Below are positions 11,700-15,369 of a stretch of DNA of 64,000 bases, one piece after another. The DNA lies in NCBI RefSeq assembly GCF_027359375.1, contig NZ_CP114779.1, forward strand, positions 372,001 to 436,000. Direction: 5' to 3'. Each line of letters begins with the position of its first letter. Position 1 is the stretch's first letter. A program made the position numbers and the translations under genes. The DNA comes from Prochlorococcus marinus str. MIT 0919 (lineage in GTDB: Bacteria > Cyanobacteriota > Cyanobacteriia > PCC-6307 > Cyanobiaceae). The notes beneath the pieces are model-generated. The model saw only the letters and a list, made by a program, of their open reading frames with translations. It was not told the DNA's origin and ran no database searches.

Positions 11700-14189
11700 T
11701 TAATTCAATTTCATTTGGCCTACAAACCTTTGCAGATGTGCATCAAGCATCATAGAAAGGAATTTATTTCTAGAAAGATTAGGATCATCCTCCAAAACTG
11801 ACAAAGCTTCTTTTCTTGCAAGTTCTAATACTGCTGAATCATTAATCAAATTAGCCAACGCAAAATCAGGAAGACCCGATTGTTTGGTACCCAGAAATTG
11901 TCCTGGCCCCCTTAAGCTTAGGTCTATTTCAGATATCTGAAATCCATCGTTAGTTGCAACTAAATGTTCTAATTTTTTAATTGACATTGGATTCTTTCCT
12001 GAATCAACAAGAGCACATTCTGATGACTTAGCTCCTCTGCCTACTCGGCCACGTAATTGATGAAGTTGGGATAACCCAAATCGATCTGCATTATCGATTA
12101 TCATTAACGTGGCATTTGAAACGTCTACACCTACTTCAATAACAGTTGTAGATACAAGGATATTTAGCTCTCCTGATAAAAAATTTCTTATTGCAGAGTC
12201 CTTTTCATGGCTTTTCATTCTGCCATGCAACAAACCAACGCTAAATTCAGGGAAGATTTTCTCATTTAAGTCATGAAATACATTAACTGCAGATCTTAAA
12301 TCAACTTTTTCTGATTCCTCAACAAGTGGAAGAACAAAATAAACTTGTTGCCCACTCGAGACATGATCCCTAATTAAACTATAAATACGTTTACGTTGAC
12401 TATTAAAGAATAATGTGGTCTTAATTTGCGTTCTTCCGGGAGGCAATTCATCTATTTGGCTTACATCCAAATCTCCATGAATTGAAAGGGCTAAAGTCCT
12501 TGGTATAGGAGTTGCCGTCATGGTAAGCAAATGAGGCTGAAGGCCCTTATTCAGTAACATATTTCTTTGATTGACCCCAAAACGATGCTGCTCATCAACA
12601 ACAACTAAACCCAAACGAGCAAAAGAAACATTATCCTCTATTAATGCATGTGTGCCTACTATGATTTTAAGAGAGCCAGATGAAAGATCATTCAAAATAT
12701 TCCTGCGGCGCGCAATAGTTGTTGAACCAGTAAGCAACTCCACGGTTACATGCAATTGTGGAAGCCATTTGCAGAGATTTCTGTAATGTTGATTTGCTAG
12801 AACTTCTGTTGGTGCCATAAAAGCTCCCTGCCACCCAGCTTCTACTGCATGTAATAGAGCCGATATTGCAACAACTGTTTTTCCGCTCCCTACATCTCCT
12901 TGAATCAACCTGGCCATAGGCTCTGTTAAAGAAAGATCAGATTTAATTTCATCAAGAACCCTTTGCTGAGCACTGGTTAAATGGAATGGTAGAAGCTTCA
13001 AAAATCGGTTAGATAAAGTCTCAGGAGAATGTGTAATTTCAAGAGAAGGAGCAATGCTTGTACTTACTTGATATTTTTTACGTAAAAGGCCTAATTGCAA
13101 AAAATAGAACTCATCAAAAACTATTCTTCGTCTAGCTTGTTTTAATGATTCATTATTAGTAGGTAAATGGATTTCATACATCGCTTCCTGTATGGACATA
13201 AGAGATAATTTCTTCTGTTGTTCTAGAGATAAAGGTTCTGGCCATGAAGAAGTTAATGACAAAACCGAATTAATATATCTACGAAATTTATCAGCTGTTA
13301 ATCCTTCGCATAGACTATAAACAGGAAGCAAGCGACCTATCACATTGGATTTAACAATCGAGTTACTTCTCTCCAGGAGCTCAAGAATAGGGTCAACAAA
13401 GCATTTCCCATACTTACCGTCTTTTACTAAACCACTAACTGCGAGGGTAGATCCTACAGGAAAGAGTTTTGCCTGTTTATAAAGGTAACTACTTTTAGAA
13501 AGTCTACTTCCTGCAAAAAACCGTGTTACTTTTATTCGACCAGTAACATCTTGAACCTGCAAGTCAAGAATAGATAGGTTTTTGTTTCGTGGACTAGTAA
13601 AGAAATTAACTCTTCTCACTTGCACAACAATTGTGGCATGTTCACCAACAACTAATGAATTGATCCTTTTCAATGAAGAGTAGTCGATATAATCTCTTGG
13701 AAAGTGCAGTAATAGATCACGTATCAAGATCATTCCAAAGCCTGCCAAAGTACTTGATCCTTTTGTTCCTATTCCATTGACATGGGAAAGGGGGGTTTCT
13801 AAGGAGAACTTTGATTTATTTGTAGTGTTGTCTGACTTGGAATCAGCTCTAAGAGGCGAGATATTCAATCGGGGAGGCTTTATCTCCGAAGGGGAGGCGT
13901 AAATTTTTGAAAGCCTATAAAGGAATTTCTTAGTATCAACAACTAATCTACGTCTTTGGCTATCAGATAATGAAACATAGTCACCAAAAGACTCTGATAA
14001 GAAAGTTAAATGTTTAATCTGGTCTTCAGAAAGAAATTCATGCTCAATAGCTAAAAGTTCTCTAGATAAAAAAGAATTAAAATTTTCAACCCTGCCTTTT
14101 ACATTGTGAAATTCGTTCTCAGACTCTAATATTAAGGCCTGCTGTAAGGGCCTTAGCCATTTCCTTAATTGAGAGTTTCTTGTTTCTAT
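11700..14189 (-). CDS. recG: ATP-dependent DNA helicase RecG (apparent non-canonical start)
   Basis: RecG remodels stalled replication forks and recombination intermediates. Helicase motifs are all visible: Walker A GDVGSGKT, DEQH box in VVVDEQHRFG, TATPIPRTL, and the C-terminal VGRGAKSSECALV and GPGQFLGTKQSG segments; an OB-fold wedge domain precedes them. The first canonical start is TTG at 13868, which gives 722 residues. The frame continues upstream without a stop for another 107 codons to 14189, encoding a helical segment (including LRKWLRPLQQALILESENEF and SDSQRRRLVVDTKKFLYRL) like the N-terminal extension of cyanobacterial RecG. That extension has no ATG, GTG or TTG. I place the start at ATA 14189-14187, four bases after an AGGG, giving 829 residues; this start is inferred. 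Confidence 0.85.
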   Translation of the reverse strand: METRNSQLRKWLRPLQQALILESENEFHNVKGRVENFNSFLSRELLAIEHEFLSEDQIKHLTFLSESFGDYVSLSDSQRRRLVVDTKKFLYRLSKIYASPSEIKPPRLNISPLRADSKSDNTTNKSKFSLETPLSHVNGIGTKGSSTLAGFGMILIRDLLLHFPRDYIDYSSLKRINSLVVGEHATIVVQVRRVNFFTSPRNKNLSILDLQVQDVTGRIKVTRFFAGSRLSKSSYLYKQAKLFPVGSTLAVSGLVKDGKYGKCFVDPILELLERSNSIVKSNVIGRLLPVYSLCEGLTADKFRRYINSVLSLTSSWPEPLSLEQQKKLSLMSIQEAMYEIHLPTNNESLKQARRRIVFDEFYFLQLGLLRKKYQVSTSIAPSLEITHSPETLSNRFLKLLPFHLTSAQQRVLDEIKSDLSLTEPMARLIQGDVGSGKTVVAISALLHAVEAGWQGAFMAPTEVLANQHYRNLCKWLPQLHVTVELLTGSTTIARRRNILNDLSSGSLKIIVGTHALIEDNVSFARLGLVVVDEQHRFGVNQRNMLLNKGLQPHLLTMTATPIPRTLALSIHGDLDVSQIDELPPGRTQIKTTLFFNSQRKRIYSLIRDHVSSGQQVYFVLPLVEESEKVDLRSAVNVFHDLNEKIFPEFSVGLLHGRMKSHEKDSAIRNFLSGELNILVSTTVIEVGVDVSNATLMIIDNADRFGLSQLHQLRGRVGRGAKSSECALVDSGKNPMSIKKLEHLVATNDGFQISEIDLSLRGPGQFLGTKQSGLPDFALANLINDSAVLELARKEALSVLEDDPNLSRNKFLSMMLDAHLQRFVGQMKLN

Positions 14190-14214
14190 AAGTCCCTACT
14201 AGTTGAGATGTAAA

Positions 14215-15369
14215 TTATTTTAGTGGTATTTGCCACCAATTCTCCTTAACTTCTTTAGCTAAAGAACGCTTACTCCAATAACGTTGCTGTCTGACCATTT
14301 TAGATAATTTTTTTCGTTGATCAATTATCTTTTGCCTACACTGCCTAAGCTTGAAATTATCGAATTCAAGCTCAGAAGGACGAACAAAAATGCATAGAAC
14401 ATCTAAAGAAGCATCTACTGCATTGTCTTGAAGTGGGATACGTATTTTAAGGATATTTGAGGGAGCATGAAGTGATTGTATTTGTCCAGATAAAACTCCT
14501 TCAAAAAGTGAAGTAGGAATATAGCTGTTAATTAAACCGATCCTAAGGAGTTCAATATTAATTAAATGAGACAAGTTCCTTAGCCTAATAACTAATGAAG
14601 TTTCTATAGAATTTGCCCAATGAAAAATTTCTTCTGGCATCTCTGGGAGGAGAGAAGATGTGGATAGATCGTCGTTAAGGGTTGCCTTACTATCGCCAGA
14701 AATATCGTCATTAGTCTTCTTAGTATTATTATTAGAAGCAAATATATCTCCAGCCATAGAAAATATAGATTTAAATATATCCATATCATTTCTACTATTA
14801 ATTCCTGGACTATATTCAATATCGTTAACAACACTATCGTTGCTGTTAAGAGGAAGGCCTGTATCTTTTCCTCGGTTTACGCTGTTAGTGGATTGGAATT
14901 GAGTAGTGTTAGATGTATCCCAAATATCAATATCTAATTTTTCACTAATAGGTAAGCCAAGTCCAAGCTCAATAGATTCTATAGTAGGTTTTGATTCTTC
15001 TAACAGTTCAGAGTTATTCTGTTCTTCTTTAGCAAGTTGGTTTTTAATATTGTCCAAATAATGCTTCTGTTCCTTCTCTACAGTATTAGCTAGATCAATT
15101 AAATGCTCTATTGTAATTAAGGAACAAGCTTTGTTAACGAGTTCATCTACTTTAGCCTGAAAAGAAACTTGGAAGCTCTTTTCGGGCATGTCACTTAAAT
15201 GATTAGAACTTATATTTATTAACTCTATAACGGATTGGTGCACCACATTAGGCAAAGATTCTCTAAGGAATTGGAGATATAAGGCGTATAATTTGTATAA
15301 ATCAGGCCTAAAAGATGCAGATTGCTTTCTAAGCAATTCAATTTGTTTAAAAGGATCTAAATTAGCCAC
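14215..15369 (-). CDS. Conserved hypothetical protein between tsf and recG
   Basis: A 384-residue protein that I do not recognise as a named family. The N-terminal part (about 1-115) is predicted helical and begins MANLDPFKQIELLRKQ from a GTG start. The middle (about 120-225) is rich in Asn, Asp and Ser and looks disordered. The C-terminal part (about 235-384) has a mixed fold and ends in a basic, Trp-containing tail (KMVRQQRYWSKRSLAKEV). No membrane segments or signal peptide are visible. It lies 25 bp downstream of tsf and its stop is 25 bp before the inferred recG start, so it is probably co-transcribed with both. Confidence 0.75.
   Translation of the reverse strand: MANLDPFKQIELLRKQSASFRPDLYKLYALYLQFLRESLPNVVHQSVIELINISSNHLSDMPEKSFQVSFQAKVDELVNKACSLITIEHLIDLANTVEKEQKHYLDNIKNQLAKEEQNNSELLEESKPTIESIELGLGLPISEKLDIDIWDTSNTTQFQSTNSVNRGKDTGLPLNSNDSVVNDIEYSPGINSRNDMDIFKSIFSMAGDIFASNNNTKKTNDDISGDSKATLNDDLSTSSLLPEMPEEIFHWANSIETSLVIRLRNLSHLINIELLRIGLINSYIPTSLFEGVLSGQIQSLHAPSNILKIRIPLQDNAVDASLDVLCIFVRPSELEFDNFKLRQCRQKIIDQRKKLSKMVRQQRYWSKRSLAKEVKENWWQIPLK

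Follow-up and report, generated by a model that had tools for sequence, protein, structure and literature searches.

At which codon does translation of recG begin in Prochlorococcus marinus str. MIT 0919? The window analyzed here is a stretch of 64,000 nucleotides of this genome (NZ_CP114779.1, positions 372,001 to 436,000), which consists of a single contig of 1,716,770 bases and is referred to below as G000. Positions are those of the window unless a contig is named.

The recG frame opens without a canonical start codon

The recG frame was read codon by codon on the minus strand. It comprises 831 codons from stop to stop (14195 to 11700) and ends at the stop codon 11702-11700. After two consecutive TAG codons the frame continues GGA CTT ATA GAA ACA AGA AAC TCT CAA TTA AGG AAA TGG. 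An earlier note on this DNA had claimed that the frame holds no ATG, GTG or TTG between the TAG at 14198-14196 and a TTG at position 13868, and this was confirmed by the codon reading: the TTG at 13868-13866 is the first canonical in-frame start. A total of 107 codons, from the ATA at 14189 down to 13869, precede it. The features of the locus are as follows.

11700-14189, minus strand: recG coding sequence read from the ATA, 829 amino acids plus stop, identified by its NF008170 match
14187-14189, minus strand: ATA, putative start codon of recG; the same codon lies at -10 from a conserved Trp in genomes G000, G001, G002 and G035
14196-14201, minus strand: two in-frame TAG codons that close the recG frame upstream, read from the sequence
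13866-13868, minus strand: TTG, the first canonical in-frame start, in a predicted flexible linker; not conserved and not thought to be the main start
13869-14159, minus strand: conserved N-terminal helical domain, which starts at the invariant Trp and runs as far as the codon preceding TTG 13868, supported by pN/pS and AlphaFold

The region upstream of the TTG belongs to RecG

The protein read from the AUA was compared with the NCBIfam model NF008170 (RecG, 826 positions) and scored 1212.8 bits against a cut-off of 975. The alignment joined residues 5-829 to model positions 5-826; because residue 5 aligns with position 5, the first position of the model falls on the ATA. Pfam domains above their curated cut-offs followed in the order wedge, DEAD, Helicase_C and RecG domain 3. 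Both the match reaching the ATA and the constraint on the codons described below bear out the proposal of the earlier note that 13869-14189 encodes an N-terminal extension of RecG. Residues 2-107 contain WLRPLQQALILESENEFHNVK.

AlphaFold, run with an alignment of 31 relatives, predicted residues 2-96 as helical, with block mean pLDDT values mostly of 88-95, followed by a poorly predicted linker that holds the codon of TTG 13868 (residue 108). VIA-align matches of the model fell mostly on the OB-fold of the wedge. The RecG structure of T. maritima (1gm5) aligned to the model over residues 7-340 with an rmsd of 17, a value that reflects differently placed domains, so the fold match of the modeled N-terminal domain is only suggestive.

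Selection was measured as pN/pS from Nei-Gojobori counts in pairs within the genus. Over the 97 codons from the Trp to the codon before TTG 13868, pN/pS was 0.40-0.43 in all genus pairs; it was 0.43-0.51 over the next 221 codons, which form the wedge segment, and 0.28 for the helicase part. By these values, purifying selection acts on the 97 codons as strongly as on the undisputed wedge domain. Since they are constrained and a helical domain is confidently predicted from them, we conclude that they are translated. The standing of recG in the genome was assessed by an ortholog scan of 697 non-overlapping orthologous ORF pairs, comparing stretches of G000 (about 44% of the genome) with the sister species G002. 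Among these pairs recG stood out by far for conserved coding ahead of its first canonical start, with a score of 280 over 109 residues; the next case scored about 100 over 30.

The ATA codon is conserved among relatives

Three species of the genus were compared, namely the window species (G000), G001 and G002, together with G035 from another genus. Within the genus, recG was 63-67% identical to that of the window, and G035 recG was 53% identical. An ATA stood exactly ten codons before the invariant Trp of the motif W(L/I)RxLQQAL in all three genus species and in G035, and no canonical start was found upstream of this Trp in any of these four genomes. The comparison with close relatives that the earlier note had called for therefore gave ATA, not ATG, at the site in the two other genus species and in G035. 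This excludes the single sequence change that the note had listed as an option.

Among codons -16 to -1 before the Trp, the ATA was the only one identical in all four species. Codons -9 to -1 showed pairwise base identities of 33-44% and pN/pS of about 0.9-1.3 within the four and about 0.9-1.2 within the genus, and are nearly saturated. The nine codons between ATA and Trp are free of constraint, yet the ATA is fixed. By column invariance, the probability that one codon is identical by chance in all four species is about 0.003, which is small but not negligible; that the codon is a near-cognate of AUG at the expected place lowers this figure. The 5′ contexts were TAGGGACTT-ATA in the window, TAAGGAACC-ATA in G002, ATAAGAACC-ATA in G001 and CTAAGAAAC-ATA in G035.

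The end of the upstream gene lies close to the ATA

Two further features stand immediately upstream.

14215-15369, minus strand: gene for a hypothetical protein, flanked by tsf and recG, whose TAA (14217-14215) stops 25 nt short of the ATA
14193-14196, minus strand: weak Shine-Dalgarno-like, purine-rich GGGA just before the start; its duplex energy is weak and it is conserved as purines only

The earlier note had pointed to an AGGG four bases upstream of the ATA. The tetramer is present at 14197-14194, but its value as Shine-Dalgarno evidence is low. At 3 nt from the ATA the four species carry GGGA, AGGA, AAGA and AAGA. The computed duplex energy in the window was -3.7 kcal/mol; G002, where the spacing is likewise short, reached -4.0, and G001 and G035 about -0.3, compared with a random mean of -2.0. 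Of random ATAs, 26% reached -3 or below. RNA structure at the window recG start was not unusual (z -0.46).

The stop codon of the upstream gene adjoining or overlapping the ATA is probably more important than the AGGG. In G002 the upstream TAG overlaps the ATA as ATAG. In G001 the ATA lies inside the closing codons of that gene, ATAACTGA (ATA..TGA), and in G035 the upstream TAA ends 5 nt before the ATA. The upstream stop is thus near or over the start in these three, and a gap of 25 nt separates them in the window species. Relative to the Trp, the stop lies at -58 nt in the window, -25 in G001, -29 in G002 and -38 in G035, and the frame of the upstream gene relative to recG varies among the four species.

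The upstream gene (14215-15369, minus strand) also has C-terminal WW(Q/K) codons (TGGTGG), which in many relatives supply an out-of-frame GTG or ATG about 26-27 codons before the RecG Trp. As the GTG or ATG at about -27 sits in the Trp-Trp codons of the upstream gene, its conservation is no evidence of a start, and recG start calls made there may be artefacts of gene overlap. An ancestral GTG in TGGTGG was considered as the recG start and rejected: it is out of frame in both the window and G001, and in G002, where the frame agrees, in-frame TAG, TAA and TAA codons follow.

Proposed initiation at AUA and alternative explanations

We consider it highly probable that RecG is initiated at the AUA at 14189 by fMet-tRNA, probably through coupling with the upstream gene and with low output. 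The ordinary initiator fMet-tRNA would start an 829-residue protein beginning fMet-Glu-Thr-Arg-Asn. Ribosomes would probably reach the AUA from the upstream gene by termination-reinitiation, which the short purine tract may help. AUA is a poor initiator codon, and the level of RecG would be low for this reason. The AUA would have taken the place of a canonical start before the genus split and have been kept since. A real AUA start was among the options raised by the earlier note, and the conserved ATA, the constrained codons and the lack of a canonical start all favor it.

Were translation to begin at TTG 13868, the first canonical start in the frame, the product would be a RecG of 722 residues like the shorter E. 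coli type, which would retain the wedge and helicase domains and leave the upstream frame as a relic. This is improbable, because the 97 codons before the TTG are constrained like the wedge domain in all genus pairs, the helical domain preceding it is confidently predicted, and the TTG itself falls within the predicted linker and lacks conservation in both G001 and G002. Equally small is the chance that a different near- or non-cognate codon close to the ATA is used, such as AGG at -2 or +2. Non-AUG initiation is leaky and the AGG at +2 is conserved, but no codon before the Trp other than the ATA at -10 is invariant, and in the window this ATA is the sole first-rank near-cognate that precedes the conserved stretch.

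Programmed frameshifting or readthrough of a stop codon might instead fuse the N-terminal region to the product of the upstream gene, given that the upstream gene ends near recG and that the recG frame overlaps its end in many relatives. No single shift direction would serve, since the upstream frame differs among the four species, and a conserved frameshift therefore cannot account for the feature; moreover, two TAG codons precede the recG frame in the window, and inspection by eye of the sole possible place showed no slippery heptamer. Such a fusion is very unlikely, and the RNA-level event suggested in the earlier note is disfavored by the varying upstream frame and the double in-frame stops before the ATA. 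An ATA produced by faulty sequencing or assembly, or by recent mutation of an ATG or GTG, would need a single change if it came from ATG. The probability of this is negligible, as the same ATA occurs in three independently sequenced species and in a fourth from another genus, two single-contig genomes among them. Initiation at the AUA remains the preferred reading.

Start codons of recG across picocyanobacteria

Several relatives start recG with a TTG at codon -11 that forms TTGA across the upstream TGA (for example L039); the large Prochlorococcus genus to which G019 belongs uses a GTG at codon -13. The window genus formed a clade (SH-aLRT 100) in a tree of 68 RecG sequences. The state of having no canonical start upstream of the Trp required four changes by parsimony, and well-supported branches force at least two. 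It was also found in all three members read of the G018 genus (L020 of G018, L060 of G117 and L078 of G090), whose opening stretch offers only codons of the ATT, ATC, ATA or CTG type, and in two members of another Prochlorococcus genus, G076 (L048) and G206 (L102). In G206 a CTG overlaps the upstream TGA as CTGA; the candidates in G076 are a TTA in TTAA or an ATC further up.

Other candidate weak starts in the genus

Beyond recG the ortholog scan gave few real cases, of which murC was the most telling.

G000:C1:1209058-1210549, minus strand: murC (L194; L195 in G002 and L196 in G001)

All 15 other picocyanobacterial genomes read have a TTG, or in one case a GTG, exactly 14 codons ahead of the motif GIGGIGM. 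In the three genus species this TTG is lost, and an ATT is present at codon -11 in each. The window species has no canonical start in frame before GIGGIGM; a GTG occurs at -7 in G002 and an ATG at -31 in G001. These sequences suggest that murC probably has a conserved AUU start in the genus.

Two further genes were observed. A Creatininase-like gene, named from its sequence (G000:C1:1687396-1688242, plus strand, L170), shows conserved coding before its first canonical start, and reads AAGGAGGCG ATT TCA ATT in G000 versus GTG ATT TCA ATT in G002; an AUU start behind a strong Shine-Dalgarno sequence is possible. A cbiD-like gene of G002, so assigned by eye, shows conservation over 32 residues ahead of its first canonical start, and its G000 partner (G000:C1:1220107-1221427; L145/L105) has a canonical start upstream. 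A species-specific weak start in G002 is possible.

Comparison with known systems

AUA serves as the start codon of infC, ccpN and citZ in S. aureus, and the ccpN AUA is conserved to B. subtilis (Nat Commun 2026, PMC13009471). AUA and AUU starts there give about 10% of AUG expression in poor medium, and the ccpN AUA gives up to 30% in rich medium; use of AUA was shown by Ribo-Ret and reporters, with a strong extended Shine-Dalgarno sequence directing it (PMC13009471). Like infC and ccpN, recG would be a bacterial gene with an AUA start. It differs in its weak Shine-Dalgarno sequence, in the upstream stop adjoining the AUA, in belonging to a cyanobacterium and in that its use is deduced from evolution only. 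Because a strong conserved Shine-Dalgarno sequence was not found (-3.7, -4.0 and two values of about -0.3 kcal/mol), recG falls outside the extended Shine-Dalgarno sub-type of S. aureus.

The gene for IF3, infC, starts with AUU in E. coli and AUC in Streptomyces, and sigR starts with GTC in Streptomyces (mBio 2017, PMC5472188). These are conserved weak starts that lower translation and are screened by IF3, and recG shares with them the conserved weak start. In these Prochlorococcus genomes infC starts with ATG, so a feedback loop of the E. coli infC kind is absent, and the IF3 sequence looks ordinary; an autoregulatory system of the IF3 type was rejected on both grounds.

NTGA (-4 nt) overlaps mark translationally coupled gene pairs, a well-known form of coupling, and reinitiation by scanning is documented for spacings such as +23 (review, PMC12548453). 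As in these pairs, the recG start overlaps or adjoins the upstream stop in G002, G001 and G035, and other relatives have TTGA and CTGA at recG. Within the genus, in contrast, the overlap is ATAG (G002) or ATA..TGA (G001), which is outside the NTGA rule, and in the window the stop lies 25 nt upstream. A search of open-licence papers found nothing relevant on an AUA start of recG or on non-canonical starts in Prochlorococcus.

Implications

At recG, the same near-cognate codon occupies one site across species, no ATG, GTG or TTG stands at or upstream of the coding N-terminus, and coding constraint begins just downstream, before any canonical start. It is well supported from these comparisons that the recG AUA joins the known but small class of conserved bacterial AUA starts. 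Gene finders assume ATG, GTG or TTG, and the RecG of this clade is therefore likely annotated without its N-terminal domain.

Few conserved AUA starts have been described in bacteria, and the present case concerns a DNA-repair gene of an abundant marine phototroph. The recG AUA lies where an upstream gene ends, and murC of the same genus has a probable AUU start; this makes it testable whether reinitiation relaxes the choice of start codon, and also whether weak starts persist because they keep expression low. More tentatively, and with somewhat less than even confidence, we suggest a shift of start choice in the genus, in which weakly expressed genes with an ancestral UUG start, at least recG (AUA) and murC (AUU), now use AUA or AUU. 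The canonical recG start has also been lost in other Prochlorococcus clades (G206, G076 and the G018 genus). Reinitiating ribosomes coming from the upstream gene would make AUA and AUU tolerable, and AUN starts might then be a widespread, mis-annotated throttle on expression in streamlined genomes.
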